64,000 bases of DNA. Source: Gracilaria vermiculophylla (Eukaryota; Rhodophyta; Florideophyceae; Gracilariales; Gracilariaceae). Each line of letters begins with the position of its first letter. Within the stretch, counting starts at the first letter, position 1. The position numbers and the translations under genes were made by a program. The stretch covers positions 5,619,306-5,683,305 of the forward strand of contig JAHNZQ020000308.1 of NCBI GenBank assembly GCA_019155205.2, in the 5' to 3' direction. Under the pieces are notes generated by a model, which saw only the letters and a list, made by a program, of their open reading frames with translations, searched no databases and was not told the origin of the DNA. Shown here piece by piece: positions 4,796 to 59,544 of this stretch.

Positions 4796-7700
4796 TTATA
4801 CTTCCGCAGAAATGAACACCCCCGTTTCCCCTTCCTTCGTCGTATGCTCCGATGGAAAGGCTTCTCTATCATCGCGAATGAACGCTTGCACACCATTTCG
4901 GTACAAGTGCAAATTCGTCCGAACAATTTCTGCCGCTTCTTCGGCAAATTGGTGAATGGGCACGTCAGAGATATCATGGCCAAACGGATCTGCCAATTCT
5001 TCCGCCCACTTCGCGGTCCCAACTACTCCATACGAAATAAACACAATCCAGAGTATTGTCAACCAGCCACTGCTCTCCACCAGACCGAGAGGTAGCAATA
5101 ACAACCAGATCACCATAAAGATTCTCAAATGTTGCACGTATCCGAATGGCATCGGGATATTAACGAGCTCTTCACATGCTGTGGCACTATTCTTCAAGAG
5201 ATAGAGGTACCACATAATGGCCCAGTGCTCGTCATAGCTGGCTGGATCAACGACGTCTTCTGCATCACGCCAGTCGTCGCTCTTGATAATGTAGTGGTGC
5301 ATCACATCAAGGCAGTAATCGGCGGGGTCTGGGGCCTTCATTAACTGCTCCGTATCTTCTTCGCTCAAGTACTTTCGATACGTTTCTCGACAATTCTCCT
5401 TTCGAAGTCTCGACATCAGTCCCACGGGGAAAGCCGCAAGGTGCGCTGCGAACCGCTCCAAATCCTTTTCGTGCCACTCATTGCCGCAATAACTTTGGAA
5501 AACTCTGTTCGACAACAGTCGCGTGTGCCCAAGAATGTTGCTCCAAATTTCTGTACCTTTCACATAACGCCCGTGACTTTCGTACAACCAGAAGCCCAAA
5601 AGAAGAAATAGAGCGAATCCGATGTACTCTTGCACAGCGCCACTTATGGAAATCCTGGAGCAAAACCATACGCCGCAACTTTCCTCGACGACTTTGGCAA
5701 AGGGGAATCGTCTGGAAACGGCCCAGGCAACCAAAACCGATAACGTTGTCCATGCAATTATACCGCCAGTCTGTAGCAGAGAGAAAGAATGCCTCGCAAG
5801 CTTCAAGACAGTCCCAATTCCTGATATTCGAGTGCGTCTTTTCACTACCACAGCACGGTTTCCAGATGTTTCCTCCCAAAAATGTTCGATATTTGATTGA
5901 CGAACAAATTCAGTCCCACGTCCGGTGTAGTTACTCTCTACAAACAATATATCAGACACGATATTGTTCGCCATCTCGTTCAGATCCAAATCGTTCAAGT
6001 CAGTCCCAAATGGGAACTGCAATTCTTTTGCAATTTGGTACATACTGTTCAGGTGGTTAGTTTCTCAAATTCGATGACCTCTCGCGAACTGGAAGTACTT
6101 ACCCCAAAACCCCGTATGCGATGATGGGCACCCACAAAATAGTGAACCATCCTACCATAATCATCAACAAGAAGTGTTAGAAGAGGATCTCTTGATATAG
6201 TGCAACTGACTTTGATGAGTACGCGAGTAGAGAGACATACCTGACGATTCCGCAAGAGCAAACGGCAGAACCAGGAACCAGAGGCCAAGGAAGCTGTTGA
6301 GTAGGATAAGAAACCCGGGTGCAATGTCGAAGGACCGCAAAAACTTTGAGTGGCGAATTACCTGCTCGAGTTCTCTGATCTCAAGCTTCACAAACGAAGT
6401 TCTGCTTCCCAATACAGCTGGAACCCTCAAATGCTGCGGGAAACTCATGAACATCATATAATATGACCGAATTACATCAACACAATGGCTAACCATGCTG
6501 TCAGCGCACTGAATCTTAGCGATATCAGAGTAGGACAAAAGTCCTTTAACCTCCCTCAGATCCCTAGAATTTCGCAGCTCACTCTTCAGAACCAGCGGAA
6601 TAGCGGCAATGTGAGCGAGGAGTCTTTTCGAATCGCCATCATGAAATGTTCCCTCACGACAGAGCGTCAAGCAGTGCACAGCGATAGTGTGACAAGAAGA
6701 GCGTAGCCGAGAACCCCAAACACCTCCCGCCGCAATGTACCTCACAAACGCTGCTTGGACAAAGAATCCCAGGAGCATGAACGCCGCAAAGGACACGTAT
6801 GTGGCCACTGTGGTATCGACCGCAAACCGTGACTTCCACCACCTCACGGTTTCGGACTCGTCGCGGGCAAGGTACGATATGATGGTCGCCACTGCTGTCC
6901 ACACTGTGACGTAAAGCAGCACCCACCATGGAACTGACTGCAGCAGGTGAGCATAGAACTTCGGTTTCACTTTGTCGTCTTCCGGTCCCTTGAAAGATGC
7001 TGGAACTTGATCGCCAAACCTGGTATCGCTTTTCTTTCTCTCCAGAAAACGAGCAAGGTTGTACTCACTCCGAACCCCTCCATCTTGCACGATGTACCCT
7101 AAAGTCGGAGCTGATTCATTCTTTTCCTCTCGCACGAGCTCCGTGACACCCCAGTTGATGCTCTCCACTCCCTGGATGACAGAGCTAGCGGCGCTGACGC
7201 ACATGTCCTCGAAAGGAATGTCTATTGCGTCCCTTCCATATGGGTCAACAAGCTTTGCAGCGATCTCCTCAAGGCCGAGCACGCCAAATGAAATCAGAGG
7301 CGCCCACAGAATCGTGTAGAAACCCGTGGTGGGAGTCATCGCGAATGGGAGCAGAAGCAACCATAGCAACGTAAACAGGTGCTGATGTTGCGTGTAACTA
7401 GCAATGACAGGAAAACGTTTGACGCCAATGGCACGGGAAATTGTCTCACGAATTTTCTTCACTCGTGATGCCATCGAGCATGTGACCGACACAGACGCCC
7501 GATCCGCTGAGAGCTCCGGGTGGCCGTCACGCTCTGTAGAATCTTGCAGTAGGATGTACGCTTCAACTGTGTGCAGCAAGTGAATGATCGCGTCCTTGTC
7601 CGCCTCCATTGCACTGTAGTCTTCCTTTGAAAGCAGCGTGGGACTATCATTGGCCATGTTCCCGTCCATGCGCAAGAGCCTGTCACGGAAGGATATGGGG

Positions 7701-10471
7701 ATCTGGCATATGTGCGCCACCACTCTTTCCTTGTCCTTGCGATGGAAAAAGTTTTCCTCGAGACTCTGCAAAAGTTCGATCGCCAGGTTCCTAAGGTTCA
7801 TCTCCATGTCAAAAATAAACATGGCTCCTTCCTCATACCTGCCAATTGCGTCCGACGCCCGGAAACTGAGAATCATGAACAACGCGAAGCCGATATTTGC
7901 CAGCACAGAAAGCTGCACGTCCAACGGACTGCACCACGCACCACAGATATCCCGCTTTGCATCGCTCCACGTGAAGGACAGAGAATAGGATATGACTGTG
8001 GCAATGACAGACCAAATTATAACGACTATCATACCCCTCACAGACACGGAGGGCAGCGAGTCGAACGCCTTGACGAAGGACCCGAGCGGCGAAGGGTCTG
8101 TGTCGTCTCTCTTTGCCTTCAAAGTGTCGAAAAACCTCTTGAAAAAGGCAAACCGCGGGTGCGATTTGGCTGCTTCTTCGGGGGTGGGCTGCTGGTCCTC
8201 GACGAGCTTTGCCTTGAAGGCGTCCCTTGAATATTCAGACTCGCGGACGAAGAAGCGCGTGCCCTTCAGACTGGCGTGGTAAGCATTGTGCACTGAGGAC
8301 CGAATTTCGTCGCACAATGTGTCCAGCGGAACATCCTCCTTGTCAAAGCCGAACGGGTCGGAGAGGTTGTTCCCGATGTGGATGAGGTTGATGATCGAGT
8401 ACGTGATGGGGATGACGTACAGGAAGCCGATAAATCCAGCAAACTGCACCAAGGACAGTGGAAGCAACGCCAGCCAGAAAAACGTGAAGATCTTCAGGTG
8501 CGTGGTGAAGGACTCTGAAATGGGAAACTTGCGCAGCGCCACGCACTCATGCACCACGCCCTCCAGGTCCCAGATGGCGTAGCCCACGCTGTAGATGGTG
8601 CCCGTCATGGGGCAAGACTTCAAGCTCACCAGCTGCTCGTGCGCGCAATCGGCCGTGTTGAGGTACGCATACACCACGTCAATGGCGTGCGCGAAAAAGT
8701 CGTCGGCCTCGTTGAAGGCAGCCACGTCCTGCGGGCCCAGCACTTCCTCCAGCTCGCGCGTGTCGCGCGATGAGCGCAGCTGCATCTTGGCGGCCAGCCC
8801 GGCCGCAACCAGGTGCGAGAACAGGCGCTCGCGGTCCCTCTCGTGCCAGATGCCCCGCTTGCACAGTATGCCAAACTGGAAGGCAAGCTCCTCCACGCAC
8901 GCCTTCACCTTGCTCTGCCACAGCTGCAGCGCGCGCCAGTACCGCCCGTACGCGTCGTTCAGCCAGAAGCCAAGCGTCAGAAAGATGCCCAAACTGACGT
9001 ACGACGTGATTGACGAATCAACGGGGATGTAGTTGCACCACCACCGGCACTCCTCGTCCTCGTTGCCGTCTCGAACGCTCCACGTGAAAAAGAACACGAA
9101 ACAGCTCCACGCCACGGCCGCCAGCAGGTACAGAAGCAGACCTTTGCTGAGGTTGCTGAACGGCGCCAGGAAAATCCTGCGGAGCAAGTGAGCGCGCGCA
9201 GGCTTGTGGTCGCGCGCAGGCAGGGCGGATTCGAGCCACGGGGGCGTTTGGTGGTCGCTCTTGATGACGGACTCGAAGTCCAGCGCGTCCTTGAAGCAGG
9301 CGTCGAGCACCTGCAGCGCGGCCTCGCCCGCCAGGTGGTTGAGCTTCATGTCCTGGATGTCGTAGCCAAACGGATCGCTCAGTGCGTCGCCAATTGTGAA
9401 GAGCATTCCCACGCCGTACGTGGTCAACACGGCCCACAGAATAGTAAACCATCCACTGCTCTGCACGAGCGCGAGCGGGAGGAAGAACATCCAAATGTAC
9501 AGGAAGATGTGCAGGTGGGTGACGTAGCCGAGCGACGGGCTGGAGCGGGCGAGCGAGACGAGGTCGTTGGCGCTGGAGTCGACGGCGTCCACGAGGTCGA
9601 TGAGCAGGTAGCGCACGCCCCAGCCGGCCGGCGTCTCGGCGCAGGCGATGTGGTCGAACCCGTAGCTGTCGTCCTCGGAGGCGCTGATGTAGGCTCGCAC
9701 GACGCGCAGGCAGTGGCAGTGCATGAGGTCGGCGGCCAGCACGTCGTCGACGTCGGCGGGGTGCAGGATGTTGGCCAGCTGCGCGCGCTCGCGCTCGCCG
9801 CGCAGCGTCATCTTGAGGGCGATGGGGAAGGCGACGAGGTGGGCGGCCAGGCGCGAAAAGTCGGCGTGGTGCCACGTGCCGGGCGGGTAGTTTTGGCGCA
9901 GCTGGCGCGCAACCTGGCGCAGCAGGGCGGCGTGCTTGGACCAGTCCAGCTGGGCGCGCCAGTGACGGGTGGAGGCCTCGCGGATGAAGAAGCCCAGCAG
10001 GACGAAGAGCGCCCAGCCGACGGCGTACGACACGGAGGAGGAGACGGAGAGTCGCGAGGTCCAAAATGGGAGGGACAAGGAGGGCAGCTGGCGGTCAGCC
10101 AGGGCGTAGGCGATGAGGGTGACGACGGTGCTCCACAGCAGCTGGAAGGCGAGGATGGAGTAGGGGATGGTGCGCAGCACGGCGATGAACGGGGAGTAGT
10201 CGGCGTGCGTGCGCTCGATGGGGCCTGAGCCCAGTTGGCCGCTTATGGCGGCACTGCGTAGGGTGAGCGCCACGGCTCTGTGTTGAAACAGGTGGTAGGC
10301 GGGGCGCTGCTCGGATGAGCGACGCGGGGACGAGTGCGAAGAAGGCGTGGGGTCGGACGGAGAGGGGTCGGATGGAGAGGGATCGGACGGTGGGCTGCCG
10401 GCGGCGTGCGGGTGGTGGAATTGGGCTTCGGGCGGCGGCGGCGGCGCTGGGGGATGCGCGCGGAGCGACAT
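4796..10471 (-). CDS. Five-domain tandem bestrophin (putative single-chain anion channel), three exons
   Basis: Model: exon 1 10471-6241, exon 2 6151-6103, exon 3 6044-4796, coding for about 1842 residues. Bestrophins are anion (chloride/bicarbonate) channels that form pentamers. After a Pro/Ser-rich N-terminus (1-60), five domains follow at about 95-400, 430-745, 795-1115, 1170-1460 and 1500-1810. Each has a first membrane helix, a pore-helix block of the LGFW...GRYW type, a middle helical block with an AHLVAFPIALK-like segment, a paired helix block of the HLxIFxxIWxxLLPLALVxSSG type, and an ending DPFGxDxxD-like loop. The loops are DPFGYD, DPFGFD, DPYGRD, FPFGTD and DPFGHD. Exon 1 ends inside domain 4 after ALAESSG, and exon 2 supplies the matching helix WFTILWVPIIAYGVLG. 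Domain 5 is wholly in exon 3. The start codon is preceded by GCC. Location could be plasma membrane or an organelle; no clear transit peptide is seen. Confidence 0.9.
6045..6102 (-). other. Intron 2 of the five-domain bestrophin (58 bp)
   Basis: On the minus strand the donor is TTGGG|GTAAGT (6103/6102) and the acceptor is CTGAACAG|TATG (6045/6044). Splicing keeps the frame (GG|T, Gly) and restores AYGVLG followed by the PFG loop of domain 4. The exon between the two introns is 49 bp, not a multiple of three, so skipping it would shift the frame. Confidence 0.88.
6152..6240 (-). other. Intron 1 of the five-domain bestrophin (89 bp)
   Basis: On the minus strand the donor is CAG|GTATGT (at 6241/6240) and the acceptor is TTATGGTAG|GA (at 6152/6151). 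Removing it joins ALAESSG to WFTILW, exactly the sequence found at this point in domains 1 and 5 (QSSGWFTILW, ESSGWLTILW). If retained, translation stops within about 25 codons. Confidence 0.88.
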
Positions 10472-26559: not shown

Positions 26560-29500
26560 CTGCTCCTTCAACGCAGAATCGGCGGGCCCTCCCAATCCTG
26601 CTGGACGCATTCGACAACTTTGAAGATTCTGTTTGCACGCTAAGCCGTGAGAAGTACAAAATGTCCGGCTCTATAGGATGTTCCCCACTCGCCTCCAGCA
26701 CGGTGCGCGCTTTCCTCGATACTGGCGCTGGCCCCAGTCTGGTACACGCCGACGTGCTCTCGCGGTCTGCTCTCGGCTCCTTGAGGATTTACAAGCTGTT
26801 TACAGTGCGCGAAGCGTCGCGTTGAGCATTGAACATCCTCAGCGCAGTCCCCCTGTACCTCCTGTTGGGCTCCTTCCAGGTGAGAGTGTGGTTCCTCGTA
26901 GCGACCAACTTGGCCGCAAAATGCATATTGGGCACTTCCATTGTGGATTGGTTTGTACATGCAATCTACCCACGCCTGCGAGAGTTGACGTTTCACGACG
27001 TCGCCCCAATAGGTATCGTGTTCGCATCTCCGGGACCGGACGCCAACGCGCGTCACGTAGATAATCATCCGTGGGTAATCTCACAAAAGAGACGCAATCG
27101 AATAAGCTCCGGTTGGTTAGGAGCATCGAAATACCCGCGAGGATCAGGCCGAAGTTTGGGTGCCGACCGCTGCATCTTGCCTTTCATTCCTACAGGAGAG
27201 TCCACATCTGAGGACGAAAAAGCACTCCATGATGGCGAAAGGAGTTATAGAAATAACACCGAACATTCCCTTCAGGGTTGTGCTCGCCAACCTGAAGGAG
27301 TCGCCGTTACGGCTCCAGAAAGGAACTGTCGCCGGACTGCCACTCCCCGCTCGTGCAGGACTGGCTCATCTTCCTCGTGCGGAATACATTGCGGATCGCG
27401 ATGAAATAGTCACCATGGAGGCGGAAGCGACTTCCACGACTCCAGAGGAAGAGAACCATGCCCTGTGGCAGCATAAGCTCCAAATTTCCGACGATTTGGA
27501 AGGGTATCGCTAAAGGATAGTGGAGATGATACCCCCTTTTGAGGACATGTGATCTGGTCGCCTGGGTCAGGTCAGCCTGGCCAAGCACAGGATCCAGCTC
27601 ACATCCGATGCAAAACCGGTACATCAACTCCCGAGGAGGGCCGGACCCCATGCGCGCAATTTCGAACGCGGTGAGGTCCACCAGATTCTGGAGAACTGCC
27701 TTATCGAGCATTTCAATTCCCAGTTGGCCTTTTCAATGGTGTTTTTGAAGACGAAAGATGGCTCCTTGTGGTTCTGCCATGATTATAGACGCCTCAACGA
27801 GATGACGGTACGCGATTCGTACCCGATACCCCGTATGGATGAATGTATCGACTCTTTAGGCGATGGGTCCGTCTTCTCCACGCTGGACGCCAACAGAGGC
27901 TACTGGCAGATTGAGATGGACGACTCTGATAAGGATAAGGCAACGTTCACTTCGCACTGTGGGATCTTCAGATTCCTAAGGATGCCATTTGGATTGAAGA
28001 ATGCACCCGCTAGGTTCCAACGAGCTGTAGAAATAATCCTTTCAAAGATAAAGTCGCAGTACGCTTTGGTGTATATTGATGATGTCATCATAGACTCCCG
28101 AATCGTGGAGGAGCACTTCATTCATGTGAAGCACGTGCTCCAACTCCTAAAGGATGCTTGACTGACCCTGAAGCTGGAGAAATGTTTCTTTTTCATGTCC
28201 TCGGTGGATTAACCAAGGCACGTTGTGCTCCCAGGCCGCCTGCAGACTTCCAGACAAACTCAGGATGCCATCAAGGAAGCTCACCCTCCCACAAACCAAA
28301 TGGAGCTTCGCCCCTTCCTGGGGTTTTGTAATGTATTCTGGGGACTCGTACCAAATTTCTCCCGTATATCGCCGCCGTTAACGTGCCTCCTGGAGAAGGG
28401 CAAGCCAACGCAATTAGCTATCTTGACGGACGAGGAGTTTGAAGCCTTCCACACCCTGAAGAGGAGACTAATAGAACTACCGATCTTGGTACTTACGAAG
28501 CGGCATGGCCGAATGGTGCTGGGGACTGACGCCTGTAAATATCAGGTTGAATGTGGCCTCCTACAGGAGCAACCTGAAGGCGGACTTCAACCCATCAGGT
28601 ACTAGAGTCGCAGCCTCTTACCTACGGAATGGAATCATTCCACCTCGGAGCTCGAATTTCTTGCCATCGTGTGGGTGGTTTTAGTTTTACGCCCGTACCT
28701 GGAAAGCGCGCGTTCCACCTTGAGGACGGACCAAGCACCACTGAAGTCAATACTGTCTTTGACGGATGCTTCGGGTCGCCCGGAAAGGTGGAAGGTACGC
28801 CTCCTAGAGTTCGAGTTTGACACTTTCCACCGTCATGGAATAAAATACCAGGCAGCGGACGCGCTCTCGCGAATCTCCACCGAAATAGAAGACAAAACAC
28901 ATTCGGAGGACAACATACCGTGTCTGGTCATCCAAGATGCCGACGGGAAAGAAAGACCCGAGGGAGAATGTTTGGAATGCTGGCAACCTGGAGGAAGGTA
29001 TAGCGGACTCGTTGAGGTGATGACTCTTGTTGAGGAGGAGAAAGATGTTCTCCCCATCACCGTAGCGGAGTTCCTGAAGGAGCCGATTACGGATGCGTAC
29101 TGCTGGGAGTACCCCGCCACTGTGGGGAGTTTAACAAATTCATTCGATGTCGCCCGGGACAGCGTGCTTGTATGCCGCGCTCCCCTGATGGAGCTCTCCA
29201 AAAGGTGGTCGCGACGAAACTACGGGCGAGGGTGCTGTATTTCTCACTCTATTCTCGCCTCGCCGGGCACCCTGGTTGATCGCGGATGTATTTCACCATG
29301 CGGAGGGAGAACTATTGACCAAACATGGCTAACGACGCCTTCCAGACGGTGGCGGACTACTATTCCTATGCCGCCGCCAGGTGTAATATACGAAAACACC
29401 GGACGCCGGTCATCCTGCTCCCATCTTCAGGACCTTTGGAGTTTGTGGCCATAGACATCTTGGGCCCTCTCCCCAATACGGAGCGAGGGCACCGATTTAT

Positions 29501-38192: not shown

Positions 38193-41100
38193 CCGCTTTG
38201 TTTGTGGCCTCCACATGGGTCCCGCAATGTCGGCCACTTTCTGAAAGAGTGTAACGAGTGCCCAACCTACGAGAAGCGAGCTCTTTTCAAGCGCCATGCT
38301 GAAAAGAAGGCGTCTACCGGGCCCGCCAAGAACACACGTTCGCAGAAGGCGGCTCCCGATGTCAAACAAGAAGGGAACACGGTTAACAGTGTTACTGCGT
38401 TACGTAATGCGGATTCCCTCGCGTTCGATATGACTTTCAGCGATTGTGCTGAGTCTCATGAAGCCCGTGGTTGCGCGGATGACGGAGCCGACGATTCTAT
38501 CATTTCATCCCGCATAGCTGAGAAGACCGCACTGAACGGTATTGGCAGGATCAAAAAAAATCAAGCCGGTTACCATGCAGGTTGCTCTAGAAAACAGATC
38601 TGAAGCACACACGTTCACGTTCTCCAGGTCTCGGACCTCGTACGATGCTCAAACTCGCTGCCGGCCTCTTTGCTCTGCTGAATATGGAATATCTCGTGTC
38701 TTATACCGTCCTCGCCGTAGAGGATGTACATCTCGGACTGCCGGTTCTCCGTCACCTAGTGCTTGACACCAAGACCCTCCTCGAAGAACGCAGGGACCTC
38801 CTCGATGGCTCCGACTGCGCTGGTTTGGAAAAACCAGACCCCGAGAAAACAGGAGGTTAGGTGAGTCACTTGATGATTGCGCGACTAAACCGACTCACGA
38901 CCGACGGATCTGACGATGTAGGCAGCACGCCCTTTGCGGCCAAGGAGCCCGTCGATATTCCGGCGAAACGTCAAACCGCCGTGGACTTCTACGAGGTCCG
39001 TGATCATGAAGACCCGTTTCCAGACCACTTTACACCGGACTCGCTCGATAGCGACCAGAAAAATGACGTCGACGCCGGTATCCAGAAGATGCTCTCCTTC
39101 GCCGACGCGAACGGTTTACCGCCCGGGCGCAAAGGCGAACTTCGTAAGATCGTCACGGATGACACTGACGTTTTCCGCACTGCGTTCTCTGCTGGTCCAC
39201 CGACGAAGGTCGAGCCGCTACGCTTTCAGCTGACTGGGGTCGCTAAGCCGGTTCGAGTCCGTCTACGGAAGTACTCCTTGGAGCAGCGCGCTTTCCTCCT
39301 TCGCTTTGTCGATCAGTTAGTTGCTGCCGGAATGGCGTATTTCAACCCGAGATCTACATGGGCGTGCGCTTCTCTGCTGGTGCCGAAGCCGGGGCCGGCA
39401 ATGTTTCGTTTTACTGTCTACCTCGGCCCTGTGAATCTCTTCACCGTGTAGCACCAGTTCCCAATGCCGAACATCAAGCACGAACTATCAAAGCTGTCAG
39501 CATCCCGGTATTTCGCCATATTCGATCTGTCGCACGCGTACTGACAGCCACCCCTCTCCAAGTGCTCACAGTGTTGTCAATCGTTCATCATTCATGACGG
39601 CATTTACTCTACGACGCGCATAATACATGGCACTACCAACGCCGTTATGTACTTGCAGGCCACACTGGCGGCGCTGCTTCCTTCCGGTCTCCGTTTTTTC
39701 CTTCTCTGGTGGCTAGATGACATCCTCATTCATTCAACCACCATTGACGAACATTTCAAGGCGGTATCCGACTTGTTTGCATTCTGCGCAACGTTCAACT
39801 TGAAGCTGCACCCCGCAAAGTGCACGGTGTTCGCCACAATCATCCGTTGGTGTGCACGGGTCATTTTGGCTGCCGGCGTGTCGTTCGAACCTCGACGCAT
39901 TGAGAATATGCATAACATGACAGCTTCGCAGACGGGTGCTGACTTACAACAGTTTGTTTGTGCCATGCAGTGGATGCGCGTTGGCATTCCTGAGTTTTCG
40001 GCAATCATTCGTCCACTGGCAGACCATGTCAAGGAGTTTTACTCCGTCGTCGGCAAACGCACTGGCCTGGCGGCCGTCCGTGTCTCTATGACGGAAATCA
40101 GCTGGACCTCGGAGAATTTCGTTGCGTTCCAACAGTATAAAGACGCACTGGAACAGCAGGTCACCCTCACACACTTTGACTTCGGCGAACGTCTCTGTGT
40201 GTACAGTGATGCGTCGGACTATTTTTGGTCCGCCGTCGTTACGCAGATTCCAATTTCCGAATCCGACATACCGTGTGCAGAACAGCGTCATGAGCCCTTT
40301 GCCTTTCTTTCAGGGCACTTCTCGGACTCATCTCTCCGTTGATCGACTATCGAAAAGGAGGCGTATGCCATAATCGCGACGACCGATCAGAGGCACTGGC
40401 TCCTCACTTCTCAGTGCGGTCTTGACCTACACACCGACCACAACAATCTAGTCTTCTTCTTTGACCCTTCTTCGGTTGTTGCCGATCTCTCACAGATGAC
40501 TCTCCGCAAAGTTCTTCGGTGGGCCGTCAGTTTGAGCGCCTACTCGTACACATACGTCCACGTTCCCGGTTCCGACAATGTTTGGGCAGACTTGCTTAGC
40601 CGTTGAGTCTGCCTGCCAACTTTACGTCGCCTCGTGACGGTTCCGGCTCACCCCTCTTCGTCGGATACAGCATTCGGATGGCCGACTGCCGCGGAGCTCA
40701 AGTCCGCCCAGATGGCTCACGCGAACGGTTGCCCTGACGAAGTCGAGTACAACGCCGACTGCGTGTACTGTCCTCCGAGCGGTGCCGTCTGGGTGCCGGA
40801 TGCCTCCGAGGGCCTCCAACTCCGACTCTGCATCATCGCGCATACATGCCCTGGCGGCCATCGCGCAGCGTGGACGACCGCCGAGATGGTCGGCGCCCAC
40901 TACAGGTGGCGTACACTAGAGACGGATATCACCAAGTTTGTTCAGTCCTGCATCCACTGTCTTTCGACAACCTGCGGCGTAAAACCCCTGCGGCCATACG
41001 GTCCAGCGATTCACGGCATGTCGGGAAACACTTTGTCACAGTTAGACTACATCACTATTGCCCCGGTGACCTCCGGCGAGCAGTACGTTTTCATGTGGCG

Positions 41101-42158
41101 TGACGACCACTCAAACTACTGCTGGTTCTTTGCCTTTCCGGACTCGTCTGCCGAAAATGCCGCTTGGGCCATCATTGACAGGTGTGCCGCGTTTGGTGTG
41201 CCGTCTGGGTTAGTGTCGGATGGTCCGACTCATTTCAAGAACGAGACATTGCGTCTCGGCGCTAAGGGACTGCGAGTCCCGTACCACTTCACGCTGCCTC
41301 ACGCGCCGTGGGGCAATGGCGGCATCGAGCATCTGGGCAAGGAGCTCGTCCGCATCTTCCGGGCGACGGCTTCCGAATTGCAGCTGACGCATGAGAAATG
41401 GCCTGACCTCTTGCGGCTGGTGCAGAGCGCTATCAACAATGCACCCTCTCCGCAGCGCGCTAATGTACCGCCTATCAAGGCCATGACGGGAATGCCCGCG
41501 ACTCCGCCAATCACGACAATTTACCGTGCGCAGACGATGGGCCCGATAACGATTACCGACCTCAATCGTGAGCGTACACTCAACGTGGAAGAGCTATGTA
41601 CACTGGTCAGTGATCTCCACCCCTTCGTGCAGGAGGCACTTCAGACCGAATCGCCGCCAAGGACGCAAATCAGTCTCGAAAGGGTCGTTGCCAAATTCTA
41701 ACGAAGCCCATTTGGTGCTCGTTGCTCGCAAAGACTTTCACGCTGGTGAAAAACTGTGCCTTCGGTGGCGCAGACACCGTCGTGTCATAAAACCGGTACA
41801 CGAATACGTCTACCTGGTCGTGGATTTGCGCAACGGTTCGATCGATGAGACTCACATCACTAGCCTCAAGTTCTACCACAACGCGTCGCTCGATACTGAC
41901 GCTATTATGTCGCCCGTCGTAACGTTGGAAACCAGCATGATCTTGCACCGTTTGCAGGAGCTCGTTGAAACCGACGATGGTATCGTGATTCGGATCCGTG
42001 GGCGCGGCTTGCCGGATTCCAAAAATACGCTCGAGCCTCTCGCACAGGTGTATGGAGATGTGTCGCAATTATTGTTGAAACTCGTACGCCGCAAAAACAT
42101 CCCGACGGAGGCAGCCGACAAAGCGTGTCGTAAGATTTACCTCTAAGCAAAGGAAGTG
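38193..42158 (+). mobile_element. Ty3/gypsy chromodomain retrotransposon C, 5'-truncated
   Basis: A different lineage from A and B, with its own protease, RT and integrase sequences and higher GC. The 5' LTR and most of gag are missing, cut by the copia element. After the pol stop (42144-42146), GCAAAGGAAG followed by TG at 42158 may be the polypurine tract and the start of the 3' LTR, whose end cannot be placed. Confidence 0.8.
38202..42146 (+). pseudogene. Gag-Pol of gypsy element C: protease, RT, RNase H, integrase, chromodomain
   Basis: Order: Gag end with GHFLKECNECP; retropepsin motif ADDGADDSIISSRIAEK (about 38480-38530); RT with LLVPKPGPAMFRF (about 39373) and catalytic WLDDILIHS (about 39710); RNase H with VYSDASDYFWSAVV (about 40200); integrase open for 355 codons (40634-41701), with zinc motif HTCPGGH...CIHC, then SQLDYITI, VSDGPTHF and GGIEHLGKE for the DDE triad; chromodomain-like tail (about 41900-42100) with RGRGLPDSKNTLEPLAQVY. 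Stops lie at about 39450, 39540 and 40340, and at 40605 before integrase. Another frame change at about 41690 separates the chromodomain part. Confidence 0.87.
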
Positions 42159-45991: not shown

Positions 45992-47197
45992 TTATATGCA
46001 AGCAAGTCCAAGAGTACGTCGATTGAGGGCACCAGGGATGCTGATGGCCACACTGTTGGCTGTCAATAGTTTTCTCGTCGGCCTCTGTCCGTCGGACAAC
46101 AAAATGGCACATGCCCCGGCAACGTGAGGGGAGGCCATAGATGTTCCAGATAACCTCCTGGTCGAGCCAGGGCTCAATCCATCAGACAAAATTGAAACTC
46201 CTGGGGCAGACAAATCCGTGCATCGCAAGTCTGAGGTTGCAAAATTTGTGAAGCTGGCGGCGTTCAGATTAATGTCGTGAGCTTGAACAGTGAAAATACC
46301 ACCACCGGGTGTTGATGCTGGCGAAGAGTTACACGCATTCGCAGCACTATTTCCGGCTGCAAGTGCGAAATAAACTCCGAGTTTCCTGGCCTCTGATACG
46401 GCGTCATTTACGGGCTCAAACCGTGGCCCGCCCAACGACATATTGATGACATCACCGTTGGCGAAAGCTCCTCTGTTGTTCGCGGCAAATTCTATTCCCC
46501 TTATGACATTCGAATACGATCCAGACCCATTGTCGCTCAAAACTTTGACACAACTCCGAACAGCGGATGGGGCGACGCCGTACAGCGGACTATTGACAGT
46601 CCCCGCAACATGAGTACCATGCCCTTGATTGTCCTTACAAATAGGTGATCCCCCGTAATACCCTTCGCAAAACCCTCCCGGAGTCGGATTACATCCGGTG
46701 TCCAGCACCCAAACATTCACTCCTGCACCATTATTGCTTGACATGCTGCATGTCCGTAATCCGTCCCTCACTGGATTACCGCTCTGCCTTGCCACACCGC
46801 CATCGGCTTCATCGATACCCCACAGATTGGTAGTGCTCGCAGCTGTGGTGACAATAAAGTCCTGTTGAACCAGATTAATGTTGACATTTCCATTAGTTGA
46901 TCCGACTCGCAGGGCGTTATCAACAACTGCTTCCGACGGCGAGGAAGAAGGAGGGCAGTTGACATCAACGAATGAGAGGTCGCCAATCAAAGAAGCCCTT
47001 GTGGCACGGCATCCTGAAGTGGCCGGGTCCAATTCAAGGGCGGCTCGGATGGCCTGGCGGCATGGACCTGTACATCTTCCTTGTACTTCGGCAATGAACG
47101 CTCCCTGGATTGCCTGACATGAGACCTTGCTAATGATGAGCATGAGCCCCAAAACGAATGCGAACGAAATTCTTTTGGAAAACATGTTGGTAGTCAC
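45992..47197 (-). CDS. Secreted subtilisin-like serine protease (S8, proteinase K-like)
   Basis: A 401-residue protein. A signal peptide is likely at residues 1-28 (a hydrophobic stretch ending KVSCQA). A propeptide region of about 29-125 with several Cys precedes the catalytic domain. The triad is D166 (WVLDTG), H193 (GHGTHVAG) and S353 (GTSMASPHVA), with oxyanion N283 (AAGN). All are intact, so activity is expected. The length and the single compact catalytic domain resemble proteinase K-type enzymes. Met5 is an alternative start that would leave the signal peptide intact. It would act outside the cell or in a vacuole. The nearest upstream gene is more than 4 kb away. Confidence 0.93.
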   Translation of the reverse strand: MTTNMFSKRISFAFVLGLMLIISKVSCQAIQGAFIAEVQGRCTGPCRQAIRAALELDPATSGCRATRASLIGDLSFVDVNCPPSSSPSEAVVDNALRVGSTNGNVNINLVQQDFIVTTAASTTNLWGIDEADGGVARQSGNPVRDGLRTCSMSSNNGAGVNVWVLDTGCNPTPGGFCEGYYGGSPICKDNQGHGTHVAGTVNSPLYGVAPSAVRSCVKVLSDNGSGSYSNVIRGIEFAANNRGAFANGDVINMSLGGPRFEPVNDAVSEARKLGVYFALAAGNSAANACNSSPASTPGGGIFTVQAHDINLNAASFTNFATSDLRCTDLSAPGVSILSDGLSPGSTRRLSGTSMASPHVAGACAILLSDGQRPTRKLLTANSVAISIPGALNRRTLGLACI

Positions 47198-48700
47198 GAT
47201 ACCCTCTTGAGATACAATACTGATCGAAATCTACCACATCGACCCATGACAGACGAGAAGCATTCTTGAGTCATCAGCGTAGCTTAAATAGCAAATTGGA
47301 GATGGTTGGTTTCTGGTGGTTTTCAATTTCTATTATGTTTTCGGTCAAGAAAAGCTTCAATATGACAAACAGGCGTCATCATATTGGTATTCACCCCCTT
47401 GCGGAGACACTCCTCCCGGTTCACCACACAAATGCACTAATTATCTTCTGTCTTAGTGATGACGCAACGATAAATTCGCCCATGAGTTTTGTTCTGCACT
47501 CAAGAAGAGTTTCATAATGTGGGTTCAGTAAAAACCGTTTTGATGAATCAGCGTAATCATTCACTTCATTTTACGTATGAAACGTTTTACTGGAACCATT
47601 CGGACGAGCTTTGCGCCGGTTGAAAATTTATGACGCTTTGAAGATTCTCCAAACGGAGACAATCATTCGTTCATCTGTGATACCATGTGGTACATTCTTT
47701 GATGACAAATACATCGTCCAGGATTCAAAACCCCGAAGATGATTCCCATATGCGACAACGCGTTCGCTCACCAGCTAGACACAAAGCAGGATGGACTGGT
47801 ATCATCATATCGGACCAGTTTATCTAACAGCACTGTTATTCGAAAGTTATTCATTCAATTGGTATGCTCACCATTGATTGATTGCGATTCGTCAGCTGCA
47901 AAATAATTCATACAATGATGTGATATTGAAAATGCATAAACACAAAACATGACGTTCTTTTCTATATTTTAATTATAATTTTGTACATTCGTTTTGTCAC
48001 AGAGCAAATGCTTCGTGTTTTCCGCATCGCACCCACTCGAAAATTCGTAATTAACGAAATGCAGCCTTGGCTTTGGAAATGTATCACTTTAGTGCTCATC
48101 GCACAAAGAGTACACAAATTCAACGAGCTTTAAATCCGAAAAACCCTCGACACACAATTATTTGCAGCACGTTTGGCCACGAAACCTAGAAACACCACAG
48201 AGCTAACTTCATTAAAACTCCTTCACAGCACTACGGCGGACCTGGGCATAAACCCTTTATTTTGAGATGGCTCTGTGGGTGTGACATGGGTGGATGCAAT
48301 TATTTGATCCATTGAAGAAAAATGGGCCACACCTTTTGCTCATCGCTTCATACAGTGGGTCGCTTCGAAAAACACAAATTTGTACCAGCACTCAAATATC
48401 AAAATACGTATTGACAGATTTGATACGACTGAAATGGGCACGCAAAGTCCGTACCAATTCGGCAATTCTCCCACACAACTGTATATTGCGCGCCAAAATT
48501 TGATATTTGTTACATTGGAGCAATCTGTCTGACGAGTGGGTGGCATACCCACTTGGAGCGGTTTGCACACACTCTTTTGGTGCAAATGTTATCAATTTTA
48601 GTACACGCATTTTGCGATTTGTGTTTTTAGGAGTCACCCAGTAAGAATGGTACCAGAACAAATGAAAGCGTCGAACTTGTCGAACAGTATACAGCAAGGG
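47198..48700. other. Intergenic, no gene seen
   Basis: Short frames without motifs. The first few hundred bases presumably hold the subtilase promoter. Confidence 0.5.
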
Positions 48701-49916: not shown

Positions 49917-51689
49917 TCAATGCGCGTCTCTCAACTGCGCCCACTTCTGCTCACTGCTGCGGCACACCAGTCGACCAAGTCTACGCAACTCTTCCCCGTC
50001 TGCTTCTTCCTGCACCCCCTTCCACAGCCGCCACCCGCGCTCCACGTCCTCGTCGCTCGCCCCCTTTTGCTGCGCCAGCGCGTTGCCCAACATGGCCCGC
50101 GCAGACACGTCGTTTGTTTCGCTCACCGCGTCGCGCAGCATCTGCATCCCCGACTCCCAGTCCCGCTGCACCCCCGCCACCCCGTTCATCAGCACGTACG
50201 CACAATTCAACTGCCCCAGCAGCCGCAAGTTGCCGTCCATCAAGCCCTCCAGCACGCCCACGCACTCGTGCTGCCTCCCCTCCGTCTCCAGCAGCAGGCT
50301 GGCCAGGTTCAGGCACGCCAGGTCCGCTATGCAAGTGAACACCCTCATCGCGTTGCTCACGCACTCCAGCCCGCCGTGGAACGGCAGGTCAAACCGGCAG
50401 CGCCGCGCGAACGGTAGCACAAAGCTGTACACATTCACATCCCGTCTCTTTCTATCGCGCTCAAACCGCTCCAGCGCCCTCAGCCTGTCCGCCGCGCACT
50501 CTCTCTCGCTCAGAATCACCGCGTCGCTGAAGCACACGTCTTCTATTCTGCTGTCGAACGTCTCCATCAGCGCGCGCGCCCGCTTTCTGCCCCCGGGGTG
50601 CAGACTCAAGTCGTATCGCAGCATCAACGAAAAAACCCCATGCCTGGTCCACTGGTGTATGTCCAGTATGCGCAGCGCCTCTTTGCGCTCGGACACGCTC
50701 CAAAGCACCTGCGCCATGAGCACCAACGAGCCCAGGTTCCTGTTCTTTTGCACGTCCTTGAGGCAGAAGTCGTGCACCCGCACGCGATTGTCGGGCGTCG
50801 CCGCGCGGCAGCCGAGCAGGTTGTGCACGAACTTGAACCGCGCCGCCCCCGAGTCGAAGCGCAGAGCCGCCGCTTCGTACAGATTCACCCCGCGCTCCAC
50901 ATCCACGCTGCGCTTCACGTACAGATCGGCCAGCTCCAACATGGTCAACTCGTGCTGCTCCTTTTCCAGAGAATCTTCCAGCAGGCGAATGGCCTGAGTC
51001 ACATCGTCCTCGTCTGCGTCGCCGTCCAGCATGAGCAGCGCTAAATTGAAGCGCGGCGCCGCGTCGTCGCACCGGTTGAGCGAGCGCATAAACCACTTTC
51101 GAGCCTTTGACGCGTTCGCCTTCAAGACGCACGTCCCCTCGCTGTATTGCAGCCCCAGCCGATTCATGACCAGCGGGTCTGCCGTCATGTCTATTGCTTT
51201 CCTGTACAGCTTCAACGCGCGCCGCCTGTGCTGGTGCATGGACGGCGCTTGGAGCAGCGCAATGGCCAGGCTTTCCATGAGGTACGGGTCTTGCTCAAGT
51301 CTCAGCGCCCTCTCGAACAGCCCCGCGGCATGCGCCGCGTCCTTGCGCACGCCCTTGCCGTAAAGGTACAGCAAGCCCAGTCTGTGCAATATCTCGGGGC
51401 GCTCATCTAGTCGCAAGGCGCGCTCAAGCAGCGGCGCGGCGAGCGAGGCGGCGCCGTTCACTTGTTGGTCGGTGAAGAACTTGGCGAGGAAGTACATTGC
51501 GTGAGGGTGGCGTCCTTGCTTGATTGCGCGATTCAAAAACTGAACGCCCCGCATGCGCTGCGAGGCAAACACGTCCTCGAACACCATCATGGTACCCAAG
51601 TCGGTCATGGCGTCGATATCGCCATGCCGTCGCACAGCCCTCTCGAGCGCGCGCGCCTTGGCCAATGTCTCATTCTTGTCAGAATCCAT
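49917..51689 (-). CDS. Sel1/TPR-like helical repeat protein
   Basis: About 590 residues from the ATG at 51689 (MDSDKNETLAKARALERAV). It is built from alpha-helical repeats of roughly 36-40 residues of the Sel1 type: APLLERALRLDERPEILHRL with GLLYLYGKGVRKDAAHAAGL, then AGLFERALRLEQDPYLMESL, RALKLYRKAIDMTADPLVMN, and others to the C-terminus. Sel1 repeats form curved scaffolds for protein-protein contacts; no enzyme domain is seen. The frame stays open upstream to an ATG at 51902, giving an Arg-rich, acid-free 71-residue extension that could be a targeting peptide or chance. I prefer 51689. The partner is unknown. Transcribed divergently from the S1 protease at 52297. Confidence 0.82.
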   Translation of the reverse strand: MDSDKNETLAKARALERAVRRHGDIDAMTDLGTMMVFEDVFASQRMRGVQFLNRAIKQGRHPHAMYFLAKFFTDQQVNGAASLAAPLLERALRLDERPEILHRLGLLYLYGKGVRKDAAHAAGLFERALRLEQDPYLMESLAIALLQAPSMHQHRRRALKLYRKAIDMTADPLVMNRLGLQYSEGTCVLKANASKARKWFMRSLNRCDDAAPRFNLALLMLDGDADEDDVTQAIRLLEDSLEKEQHELTMLELADLYVKRSVDVERGVNLYEAAALRFDSGAARFKFVHNLLGCRAATPDNRVRVHDFCLKDVQKNRNLGSLVLMAQVLWSVSERKEALRILDIHQWTRHGVFSLMLRYDLSLHPGGRKRARALMETFDSRIEDVCFSDAVILSERECAADRLRALERFERDRKRRDVNVYSFVLPFARRCRFDLPFHGGLECVSNAMRVFTCIADLACLNLASLLLETEGRQHECVGVLEGLMDGNLRLLGQLNCAYVLMNGVAGVQRDWESGMQMLRDAVSETNDVSARAMLGNALAQQKGASDEDVERGWRLWKGVQEEADGEELRRLGRLVCRSSEQKWAQLRDAH

Positions 51690-52296
51690 GTGCGGTTGTG
51701 CGCAGTGTCGGAGAAGCCATGAAGGGGCGGTAGGCCGTGCGTATAAGTAGGGATGCGGAAGGGCAATGCGCTGCGCAGAGCCGCGTGCGGCCACACGGGG
51801 GAGCGGGGGGTGGGGTGTTGGGCGATGAAGCGACAATGGCGCACACGCGGTGCACCGCCAATGGCGCCGAGGTGCAGCGAGACGCCTGGTCATCCTCATC
51901 ATTGTGCCACCATGCCGGGCACTGTCTTACACGTGCACGTCGTTTTGAACACACGCGTGCAACCCAAGCAATCCGCCAGCTCCTATCCACGTCTCACAGT
52001 TACCAACGTGGAACAGTGTGCCACGTCTGCCACGTTACGCACGCGCGCTGTGCCTCAAACCACCGGCGATGCACAGCGGTGCAGCGCCCCACTATGCTCA
52101 GCGCAGCGGGCCGCTCGAACACCCGCGCCCTTCTTCTCACGCAACAGCCAAGAGCGCCGCCGCCGCTTGGGGCGACGAAGGGCAACGCCGTCGCCTCTTG
52201 CCTTCGCTCGCCCCCTTAACGGCCGCCGTCCCGGCCTCTCCATCTCCGCAACAATGACTTCCGTCCGCGCCCTCACCCCCCTCGCCGTCCGCCGCC
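51690..52296. promoter_or_regulatory. Shared intergenic promoter region of the Sel1-like and S1 protease genes
   Basis: A 607-bp GC-rich spacer between two divergent starts. A TATAAGTA sequence lies at 51740-51747 on the plus strand, too far from the protease start to assign with confidence. The bidirectional role is inferred from arrangement. Confidence 0.4.
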
Positions 52297-53324
52297 ATGA
52301 AGTGCGCGTCCGTCCTGAGCGCCACGACGCTCGCGCTGCTCGCTCTCCTCATTGCGCCGCACGCCCTTGCGCAGCAGGTCGTCTTCGCAGAGGCTGACGC
52401 TTCCTCTCAAGCGCCCGTCGTCGTCTCCTCGCACCAATCAGACCCCGCTTCCAACGCCGCCGCCCAGCCGCGCCGTGAGGGTCCCGTCATCCACCACGGC
52501 CGCGCCGCAAACCTTCCCCGCGATGATGAGCAACCGCCCGCCGCGCCCACCATCGTCGGCGGTAAGAGAGTCCCCGCCAAGCTGCGCAAGCACCTCGCCC
52601 GCGTCGTCATTGAAACCTCCGACGGGGGAATCGTCTCCTGTTCCGGCTCCGTGCTGTCGCCCACCTTCGTGCTCTCCGCCGCGCACTGTTTCGTCGACCC
52701 GGGCCGCATCGACGTCTCGCGCTCCTACGTGCTCGTGGCCGAGCGCACGACCAACATCAGGTACTTTTCCTCGCCGCCGAACAAGATCTTCATGCGAAAC
52801 GTGTTTGTGCACCGTCGCTACCGAGACAACGGCTTCTTCGCGGACGATGTGGCGCTCGTCGAGCTGCAGCAACCCATTCCGCAGCGCTTTCTGAGCCCCG
52901 TTTCGCTCGTCAGCCCGCCATCGCAGTCGGGGCGAAGCTGCAGGCCGCCGGTTACGGCGTCAGTGCGTCCAACGGCAACCAGCCGCGTCGCGTGCGTCGC
53001 ACCGACGTCCTGTTTCAGCGCTGGTCTGTGTGCGATGATTTTGCGGGCTTGCCTGTCGCAAACAATCGCCGCCGCGAGATGTGCTACACCTCGTTGGATT
53101 TCCCGGATCGGGGGAGGACTGGTACGTGCTTCGGGGATTCGGGCGGCCCCATCATGAAACGGGAGGGCGGCCAGTTCAAGCAGGTCGGTATTACGAGCTA
53201 TTTCGTGGGCGACCGTTGTGAAAGCGCGGGCTCTGTCATGGTCGCTATGCAAGTGAGCAGGTATCGACAGATGATTCGTCGAAAGGTGCTTAGAGGTCGC
53301 AATCGCGGATGGCGCCGTCTGTGA
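52297..53324 (+). CDS. Secreted S1A serine protease, frameshifted in this assembly
   Basis: Trypsin-fold protease with a signal peptide (residues 1-25, MKCASVLSATTLALLALLIA and on), a propeptide, and the activation end IVGG at 86-89. Catalytic H130 (SAAHCF) and D184 (ADDVAL) lie in the first frame. The reading frame breaks at the GGGG run at 52929-52932, and the second frame supplies CFGDSGGP (catalytic Ser, about 53135-53158) up to the stop at 53322. Alignment with the paralogue at 54929 is gap-free across the break if one base is missing, so it is either a recent mutation or a homopolymer sequencing error. The residue six before the Ser is Gly, not the Asp of true trypsins. The propeptide is about 60 residues. 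Confidence 0.85.
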
Positions 53325-54928
53325 GCATGTGTTGGCCCCCGCGCGTGCGCTACGCAGCCGTTTGGGCGCGTTTTGGCTGTTGTAACTGTAAGACCGACGG
53401 GTCCGTTGCTGTTGTTCTTACGAGAGAGAGACGGAAGTTCGTTTTGGCCCGGTTCTTTCTCTCTCGATGGTCTTGTTAGCGTTATCCTCCGCGTTTCTTG
53501 GCTTGACCAGTTTTGTTGGCTCATCAATCATGGTGGATGAATCGTGCTCCTATTTAAACATATGCCGTTGTTCCATCAAACCCTGAGTACCAGTCTTTGC
53601 CAGCGCGGGAAGACGCGCAGGTGTTGCATTGCACTTCGCGAAGCGAGTGCCGAACGTACTTTTAGTGACCCCCTCGTTCCCCCGCCGTGCGAGGCAAGAG
53701 ATGAGCGTCGCTCTTACTTGCTCGCTTCATGTTGTCCGATGCATTTCCTTTTCGCAGGTCGTGAGGCGCATTGCCTTGCTTTGATGCTTGGCGGCATGCA
53801 TAGGTCTTCAGTAGAGCTACTGAGGACTTTACAAATCATCGGCACTGATTTCGGGGGTGCGAGGGTTTCTGGCCCCTTCAAACATATGTCTGGCAAAAGT
53901 GTCGGACAATTGTAGTTCTTGATTGGCGGAAACCCGTCCACTCGCTACGGCTCACTCACCCTCGTACTTTGGGCTCCTAACTTCATCTCGAATCCGTAGG
54001 CCTACCTTCGGTACCTTCGCTAGTACACTTTAGCTGTCTTGCTGACACACCGTCCATTGCTGTACGTTTACGTGTACAAGCTCCATTGTTACTTCTCCTC
54101 ATTATTGGGCCTCCCCGCAGGTCTTCGACTGGAGACCGAATTTACCTCACGCAAAGTAATACATTTCTTGTTTCCTTGTCGTTGAGCCACATCAAGCTTT
54201 ACTTGCCACGCGCTTCATCGCTATCATCGCTTGGCGACCCAAACGTACCATTTCTTGCCGTAGCAGCTGTCAACCCCTCTACAATTCTCAAATGAGGGTC
54301 ACGTCCCCTTGACGCCCACGCACGCCGTCCCATTCTTTCCAATTACACTGGCGTCGTAGTTTTGGAGCGAGCACCGAAGACCTCCATTTTGGCCCTCGAT
54401 TTGCCCCTGTAAAGCCACCGTGGCCGAAGAAAGTAGGTACCTCTTCATTTCGAGCCTTCCTCGCAATTTCACAGTGAACCACTTGCGACTAGTTCATGTG
54501 ACGTTGTCGGGCCCACGTGAGGATTGTGTTTTCGATAATTCTCATCACATAACCCATAATACCTCAAATGCGGTCGCGCAAGAATACTCGAACAGCCAAC
54601 AAACCTCGATTAACCTGTTCGCGAAGTCAATCATGGGGCCGCTGCTACGGATAATAATGGCTTCAGGCGAGAAATCTTTCCCCGTGTTACAGGCAAACCT
54701 TGCGCTTGCTTTTGTTCGTTCGACATGTGGGCCGAAAGTGCATGTTCTTACCATCATTTCCGTCATGCTCGGTTGAATGTTCAATACAACATTCAAGAAA
54801 GATTTGAAAGCCCCACTGACCCTCTCTCCGCAACAGCGGGTCATGCGCCCTTTCCAATAACCGGAGCAGCGCAATGCCCCCGCGCAAAGCATTGTTGTGG
54901 ACGAGCCCGGCGTGCGCCCAGCTCAGCC
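53325..54928. other. Intergenic between the two S1 proteases, no gene seen
   Basis: Holds the 3' flank of the first and the upstream region of the second protease gene. Short frames only. Confidence 0.5.
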
Positions 54929-55882
54929 ATGCGCGCGTCCTCCCTCACCACAACTCTTGAGGTTGTCGTCTTGCTGTTCTGCCTCGCGCACGCATCGTTC
55001 GCACGCTTCGAACGCCACCCGTACAAGCAGCGCCACGGAAAAGCATCGCGGCTCCGCGAGCGTCCCGAGCCGCGGCGCGCGCGCGAAAAGCGCATCGTGG
55101 GCGGCGGCGCCGTGCCGGAAACCGTGCTCAGACGCCTGGCGAGAGTGGTGGTCAAGGACGACGGCGACGAGCTCGCCTCGTGCACGGGGTCGGTCGCCGC
55201 GCGCACGTACATCATTTGCGCTGCGCACTGTTTCGTCGACGGTGACGCACAGGTTGACGTGCAAAACTCGTACGTTCTTGTTGGCGAGAGAAGCAGCAGA
55301 CTTCGGTACTTTGAATCGGCGCGAAACAAGTACTTCATACGCGCTGTGTACGTGCACAGAAAGTACAGAGACGATCGCACGTTTTCCTACGACGTTGCGC
55401 TGATTCAGCTCGTGGATGGGATTGAACGCGATCTGTACAGCCCGGTGTCGTTGGGAAATCCGCCATCAAACGATGCAACAAAGGTTCAGGCAGCCGGCTA
55501 CGGCGTGAAGGGCTCTAGAAAGAGGCAACCCAAACGAGTAATGCAGACCACCGTGCTATATCAATCGTGGAGCAGATGCAAAGATCGTAGAGGACTCCTC
55601 ATTGGCAATAGCCGCACGCGAGAGTTTTGCTACACCTCGTTGGACTTTCCGAAAAAGGGAAGAACCAATACATGCTTTGGAGACTCGGGAGGCCCCATTC
55701 TGCACAAGAAGAAGGGAAAATACGTGCAAGTTGGGATAACCAGTTATTTCGTGGGTGATCTTTGCGAATCGGCTGGCACAGTGAGCGTGGCGCAAAACAT
55801 TGGAGCATTCAAAAAGATGATGCGAAGGAAGATAAGGCGTGGTCACAACAGGGGCTGGAGGAAACTGCCAAGCCGATTGTGA
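54929..55882 (+). CDS. Secreted S1A serine protease
   Basis: A 317-residue paralogue of the protease 1.6 kb upstream. Start chosen at 54929 because a signal peptide begins there (MRASSLTTTLEVVVLLFCLA, cleavage near residue 25); the frame is open further upstream, but that part is Cys/Pro-rich leader. A basic propeptide ends KR at 54-55 before IVGG at 56-59. Triad H100 (CAAHCF), D155 (SYDVAL), S253 (CFGDSGGP). The position six before Ser is Asn247, and the 214-216 segment reads SYF, so the S1 pocket is neither trypsin- nor chymotrypsin-like. A basic tail (MMRRKIRRGHNRGWRKL) is shared with the paralogue. Tandem duplication is the likely origin. Confidence 0.92.
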   Translation: MRASSLTTTLEVVVLLFCLAHASFARFERHPYKQRHGKASRLRERPEPRRAREKRIVGGGAVPETVLRRLARVVVKDDGDELASCTGSVAARTYIICAAHCFVDGDAQVDVQNSYVLVGERSSRLRYFESARNKYFIRAVYVHRKYRDDRTFSYDVALIQLVDGIERDLYSPVSLGNPPSNDATKVQAAGYGVKGSRKRQPKRVMQTTVLYQSWSRCKDRRGLLIGNSRTREFCYTSLDFPKKGRTNTCFGDSGGPILHKKKGKYVQVGITSYFVGDLCESAGTVSVAQNIGAFKKMMRRKIRRGHNRGWRKLPSRL

Positions 55883-59028: not shown

Positions 59029-59544
59029 AACAAAAGTAATTGAGTTCCTTCAAGATCTCATGTACTTCTTCTGTCTTAAGCTTAGAAAAAACGACCTAGG
59101 TTCGTTTCTACAGGATGGTGATGAATTCATACTTTTTTCTCTGTGGCTGTGAAAATTTGAATTACACTCAACCGAACATTGAAGCATAATCGCCGACAAA
59201 CAGGCCCGAAGGCCATAATGTCTCGAGAGAGTAAACATACGAGTTTCTCAAAATGTGTGGTACGGAGTGGCGAAGCACAGCTCTTTTCGGGCAGTTACAT
59301 ATCGGATCTATATTTTGTCTATTTTATACCGTTACAGACTCTTGAGATTGTAACAATCTCCTTTCTGTTTATTAAAACATTTGCAAGCTACCTCAAAAGT
59401 TAGAGAAAAATGCCTGCTACGGACATTTATTTAAGAGTGAAAAATATGGCTTGGGCACCTGGTCATGAATGAGCAGACTTTGATGTGGACTATGTCGAAA
59501 CTTGAAAGCAGTTCCTTCCAGAGTTCCTTCTACATTATTCTCAA
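59029..59544. promoter_or_regulatory. Divergent promoter region between dehydrogenase and oxidase
   Basis: A 516-bp spacer between opposite start codons. No specific site was recognised; co-regulation is inference. Confidence 0.4.

Follow-up and report, generated by a model that had tools for sequence, protein, structure and literature searches.

A gene for five tandem bestrophin domains in the red alga Gracilaria vermiculophylla, probably encoding a one-chain pseudo-pentameric channel

The described bestrophins closest to the red algal gene reported here carry one bestrophin domain per chain. The original paper on bestrhodopsins is reportedly that of Rozenberg 2022. In these proteins (PDB 7PL9), according to parts of one account, one or two rhodopsins are fused to a single bestrophin domain and the chains form pentamers (PMC12291454), whereas the protein analysed here has no rhodopsin match (Pfam scan of the spliced protein, E 0.001) and has five bestrophins in one chain. 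KpBest of Klebsiella pneumoniae (PDB 4WD7/4WD8 and mutants) is a homopentamer with one domain per chain, described in sections of its source as Na+-conducting and not Ca2+-sensitive (PMC8496536); the algal protein differs in its five unlike domains on one chain, and in having, by alignment, an aspartate at the place of D301, where KpBest has alanine. VCCN1 (PDB 7EK1) is similar in being a bestrophin of a photosynthetic lineage, with a profile E-value of 3e-18, and is described, in the portion of the source available, as a thylakoid Cl- channel that is a pentamer of single-domain chains and lacks the acidic Ca2+ cluster (PMC9076864). The animal BEST1 and BEST2 resemble the algal domains in their hydrophobic neck and in having aspartates at the D301 and D304 places, beyond the PFG loop, but are homopentamers of single-domain chains and only 9-12% identical in structural alignment. 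A further comparison lies outside the family: the one-chain pseudo-tetrameric Nav/Cav channels are the fused and diverged subunits of tetrameric cation channels, and are alike in that the subunits of a symmetric channel became one chain of fixed order, although they have an unrelated fold, conduct cations, and contain four domains rather than five.

The window, meaning the whole stretch of 64,000 nucleotides that was analysed, contains a gene on the minus strand that runs from an ATG at 10471 to a stop codon ending at 4796. The first-pass annotation had given exactly this extent, 4796..10471, without stating the strand. Two introns with standard borders are predicted, and the spliced coding sequence of 5529 nt encodes 1842 aa. 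Exon 1 (6241..10471, 4231 nt) is a single open frame comprising an N-terminal tail, the first three domains and the greater part of domain 4; exon 2 (6103..6151) is a 49-nt micro-exon within domain 4, WFTILWVPIIAYGVLG; and exon 3 (4796..6044, 1249 nt) holds the rest of domain 4, all of domain 5 and the stop. Between them lie intron 1 (6240-6152, 89 bp, GTATGT...TAG) and intron 2 (6102-6045, 58 bp, GTAAGT...CAG), all of these features being on the minus strand. The Pro/Ser-rich tail (aa 1-88, 10208..10471) has no recognised domain, and is followed on the same strand by bestrophin domain 1 (aa 89-439, 9155..10207), domain 2 (aa 437-779, 8135..9163), domain 3 (aa 791-1142, 7046..8101), domain 4 (aa 1153-1499, 5828..7015, both introns inside it) and domain 5 (aa 1513-1841, 4802..5788). 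Along the gene, divided into fifths, GC content at third codon positions drops from 0.89 to 0.53, with a weaker drop, or hardly any, in the three paralogues described below.

The claim that one spliced frame carries five bestrophin domains, for which five profile matches had been expected, was borne out: exactly five stretches of the spliced protein match Pfam PF25539 (Bestrophin_2; E 5.5e-166, 551.6 bits, the cut-off being 27), and each domain by itself exceeds this cut-off in a profile search of the genome. No other family was detected by the Pfam scan at E 0.001, NCBIfam matched nothing in the two exon frames, and Rfam found no family within the window; the animal bestrophin model PF01062 had no match here, nor in any control genome, and is hence uninformative. 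Each domain has, as noted from the sequence at the outset, its own PFG/PYG loop, at residues 366, 705, 1076, 1437 and 1779, with a PFG-to-PFG spacing of 339-371 residues. Given these profile scores, and the 60 homologues described below, a chance match is excluded. By sequence and by fold, as far as these were tested, the protein is a bestrophin, but its build differs: in place of the single domain per chain of the homopentamers, five domains lie in one reading frame. Tandem repeats are prone to mis-assembly, and the array might thus have been an artefact, or a recent tandem duplication of one bestrophin. However, the domains are only 22-31% identical to one another, having diverged as the first-pass annotation had held, and are therefore old repeats; position-specific clades extend across species, and comparable proteins are present in other assemblies. 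This explanation has negligible probability, and can be regarded as already refuted. Between genes the similarity is greater, with the domains 48-52% identical to those at the same position of the paralogue C22, and with 68% identity to P0001 of Gracilaria domingensis; protein identity places the organism near Gracilaria.

A protein search with the window protein found 60 homologues, all matching PF25539, by scoring the 7987 candidates that shared most words, an approach biased toward query-like proteins; its length limit of about 3200 aa would let through a protein with six domains (about 2150 aa). Those with species names are from Gracilaria domingensis, Gracilariopsis chorda and Agarophyton chilense, and most others come from "lgn" contigs, which we take to be Logan assemblies of public reads. 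Relatives are already labelled by automatic annotation, for example as "Bestrophin/UPF0187" or "hypothetical protein", meaning such sequences are public. Position-specific profiles, trained on ten proteins (four from the same genome and six of the 60), read every one of the 60 homologues as a contiguous stretch of the series 1-2-3-4-5, with no sixth domain or altered order in any of them. All five positions were found in 45/60, the first domain often being partial, and the other 15 were cut to 1234, 2345 or 345; among the 54 homologues outside the training set, 39 had all five positions. Including the four genes of the G. vermiculophylla genome, 49/64 proteins had all five positions, with 1234 in 11, 2345 in three and 345 in one. 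In eight of the 60, P0008 and P0009 among them, each of the five domains covers more than 200 profile positions, and exactly five PF25539 stretches occur in all five proteins that were scanned (the window protein, P0001, P0002, P0008 and P0009). Most partial first domains begin between profile positions 246 and 266, while fourth domains, where cut, stop near 58-72 or about 240-257; by eye these places coincide with introns of the G. vermiculophylla genes, and the cuts look like the product of intron-unaware gene calls. In P0003, P0006, P0010, P0015, P0049, P0052 and P0060 the cuts fall elsewhere, perhaps at contig ends or through gene calls. Started from the divergent member P0059, a homologue search recovered P0059 itself and P0060 only.

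These homologues also bear on whether the domains belong to one product. Both splice junctions are predicted, and the domains might instead belong to separate genes or transcripts, or to shorter alternative products, joined by predicted splicing only. P0004, with a GEZJ accession (GEZJ01002761) that by its form is presumably from a transcriptome assembly, is consistent with such products in reading only domains 1-4 before a frame shift near the micro-exon. Yet domain 1 to most of domain 4 lie in one open frame that needs no splicing; P0008 and P0009, on contigs of 8.3 and 6.4 kb, each have five complete domains in one protein; and in both Gracilaria domingensis and Gracilariopsis chorda there are annotated proteins with five domains and about the same length as the window protein. 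We therefore regard separate products as highly improbable. P0004 itself passes the first splice site (FSGWFTI) before entering the shifted frame, and its tail, HVPNCQRIAIPIRNG, is similar to the shifted frame of exon 3 in the window gene, YVPNCKRIAVPIWD. Hence the message appears to be spliced at both sites, and this apparently transcript-derived sequence is compatible with both predicted junctions. From the sequence, its micro-exon appears to have undergone a short length change, through error, an allele or alternative splicing. The frame shift might also reflect a genuine alternative product that stops once domain 4 is complete.

The window gene is one of four five-domain genes in the same genome. 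A PF25539 search of the 44.8-Mb assembly gave 26 matches, of which 23, being whole domains or exon pieces, fell in four clusters: the window gene, C14b (L021; C14:5949903-5955332, plus strand, modelled as 1793 aa), C21 (L022; C21:428106-433255, plus strand, 1805 aa) and C22 (L023; C22:1501197-1506522, minus strand, 1788 aa). C14b is on the same contig as the window gene, about 320 kb away, and the models of all three paralogues have the 49-nt micro-exon at the same place in domain 4. The number of domains, claimed beforehand to be five, neither more nor fewer, with the same count anticipated in relatives, thus holds in the window gene and its three paralogues, and no homologue among those found exceeds or reorders it, with the incompleteness of 15 noted above. 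The remaining three matches fall in two single-domain loci on contig C11: L025 (C11:208000-212500), a 436-aa bestrophin with five introns in its gene model, and L024 (C11:302500-307500), in which single-domain pieces lie in several frames. A search with the L025 protein found 19 relatives, of which two are named (Agarophyton chilense P0061 and Gracilaria domingensis P0068). Separately, C14b and C22 are modelled with one more intron within the TM2 region of domain 4, and C14b with a further one in domain 1; both are absent from the window gene and C21. A single inherited intron at the SSG-W site of domain 1 (in C14b) and of domain 4 was considered and dropped: on our reading the two positions are four bases apart and in different phases.

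The history of the array was reconstructed from an unrooted maximum-likelihood tree (LG+C20, 324 columns, quick search, SH-aLRT support only) of 90 rows, comprising 75 domains from 16/64 five-domain-family proteins and 15/20 single-domain rows, five of the latter being dropped because they covered too few positions; 5/16 proteins had no usable domain 1. Although 28/87 inner branches were unsupported, the domains at each of the five positions were set apart from all other rows by a single branch (SH-aLRT values of 99-100), the position labels denoting order along the chain rather than similarity. No domain swap or conversion between positions was seen among the 16 proteins in the tree. Twelve single-domain rows (L025, P0061 of Agarophyton chilense and ten others) formed their own clade outside the arrays, and the distant single-domain rows P0077-P0079 stood apart. 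These position-specific clades indicate that the array already existed in full before the separation of the window gene, the paralogues and their divergent relatives, with number and order maintained since. The order of the five non-identical subunits was thus set before these genes diverged, as would be expected of a covalent ring, which supports the proposal that the chain fixes this order. On the plainest reading, with the tree unrooted, the array would have derived from a single-domain bestrophin. Between the window gene and C14b, synonymous differences are saturated in every domain (pS 0.78-0.91) and non-synonymous differences are low (pN 0.19-0.26); raw pN and pS are given in place of dN/dS because of this saturation. 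Few protein-changing differences alongside saturated silent ones, in all five domains, support a pseudo-pentamer.

How the five domains are arranged was approached through structure prediction. AlphaFold2 modelled domains 1-3 with a pTM of 0.84 and pLDDT of 85.1, and the D3'-D4-D5 segment of the relative P0060 with a pTM of 0.75 and pLDDT of 74.2, pLDDT being below 50 for 196/1038 residues. Such pTM values across three domains suggest the relative placement of neighbouring domains is predicted with confidence. The helix pattern has four long helices per domain, the fold of domain 1 is similar to known bestrophins, and the models thus have the bestrophin fold, with four predicted transmembrane helices. 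Counting segments simply by hydropathy yielded 17 rather than 20, but the method is crude and merges neighbouring helices. An even number of helices per bestrophin domain gives all domains the same orientation. A different assembly can be envisaged, in which the domains of one chain each associate with domains from four further chains, giving five adjacent pores built from five chains (25 domains), the number five being accidental; this accords with the known bestrophins, which parts of the literature describe as homopentamers of identical subunits (PMC8496536). However, it gives no reason for the constancy of five, a sixth domain or changed order being seen in 0/64 proteins (15 of them incomplete, where loss is possible), and high pTM values were obtained for neighbouring domains of one chain. 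We consider it distinctly unlikely. Chains of five domains might also combine with other chains. As to location, the first 40 residues of 13 N-termini, 12 from the five-domain family and one single-domain, contain 2-10 acidic residues. This is atypical of plastid transit peptides and, for the 12 family members, counts as a difference from the thylakoid protein VCCN1; we weakly favour the plasma or vacuolar membrane.

The residues expected to line the pore were placed by alignment to the KpBest neck, I62/I66/F70 (chain index being residue number + 3). Domains 1-5 of the window gene read W/V/F, L/L/F, F/M/F, F/M/F and F/L/F, meaning all 15 residue cells are hydrophobic. Across the family, 570 neck cells in 192 domains include 539 hydrophobic, 30 other and one charged (D, E, K or R). 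The letters are position-specific, with Trp in 11/11 first domains and Leu in 41/44 second domains, only 12/192 position-labelled domains being domain 1; the middle residue of domain 4 is Thr in 22/45 relatives. The aperture region (KpBest I180) aligns poorly, and its letters vary between domains; this and the Thr of domain 4 weigh somewhat against a one-chain channel. This irregular aperture, together with the Trp in the domain 1 neck, would suit a pseudo-pentamer that lost its channel function and now serves as a membrane scaffold, transporter or sensor, but the single charged cell among 570, and the few protein-changing differences in every domain, argue against such a loss, making it distinctly unlikely.

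Ion selectivity is less clearly indicated. The middle neck residue in domains 1-5 is V, L, M, M and L, and in none is it the Phe of animal Cl- bestrophins, hence anion selectivity is not settled by the neck. Going by excerpts on the two channels, KpBest, with Ile at this position, conducts Na+, and Phe introduced there favours Cl- (PMC8496536), whereas the plant Cl- channel VCCN1 has Leu, in a P/L/F neck (PMC9076864); the observed row therefore does not decide between Cl- and Na+. Asp is found at the places of animal D301 and D304, belonging to the Ca2+ clasp, in all five window domains and in most relatives, the share at the D301 place ranging from 38/45 for domain 2 to 12/12 for domain 1. 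The other clasp ligands are, in the sections consulted of one source, backbone carbonyls (PMC8496536). Hence Ca2+ gating through up to five non-equivalent putative sites is possible. The likely role is a regulated monovalent anion (Cl-/HCO3-) conductance, of which we infer the anion selectivity.

Taken together, the window gene is best explained as encoding a one-chain pseudo-pentameric bestrophin channel, which we hold to be probable, and the interpretation offered from the sequence alone is supported. Five homologous four-helix subunits would have been duplicated from a single bestrophin, have diverged, and have been joined head to tail. The resulting single polypeptide, with 20 transmembrane helices expected, would replace a homopentamer of five chains, with five parallel domains side by side around one central pore, linkers fixing their order and the covalent chain setting which subunit occupies which of the five places; we infer the closure of the ring, ion conduction, one pore per chain and the membrane site. 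It is also likely that red algae possess a natural family of such channels, expanded to at least four genes in one genome, in which the five pore positions, and as many as five Ca2+ sites, are not equivalent.

The first-pass annotation knew of no described five-bestrophin chain, and no description of tandem or five-fold bestrophins was found in the open-access papers searched. If the pseudo-pentameric reading is true, a homopentameric channel became a single chain in the course of evolution, as happened with tetrameric cation channels, and the result is a five-fold equivalent of the Nav/Cav channels with their four fused domains. It would then be possible to alter the five pore or Ca2+ sites one at a time, without concatemer engineering, to ask why the symmetry of the ring was broken, and the single-domain relative in the same genome would allow the states before and after fusion to be compared. 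The presence of four such genes in a single seaweed also points to an ion-transport system for which no description was found in the open-access papers searched.

Elsewhere in the window, several open frames were recognised by eye. Those at 28606-29454 and 39545-41701 are retroelement-like (RNase H/reverse transcriptase- and integrase-like). Close together lie protease frames, one subtilisin-like (45992-47230, minus strand) and two trypsin-like (52258-53324 and 54614-55882, both plus strand). The others resemble Sel1-like repeats (49917-51926, minus strand), a D-2-hydroxyacid dehydrogenase (58060-59049, minus strand) and an amine oxidase (59506-61221, plus strand).
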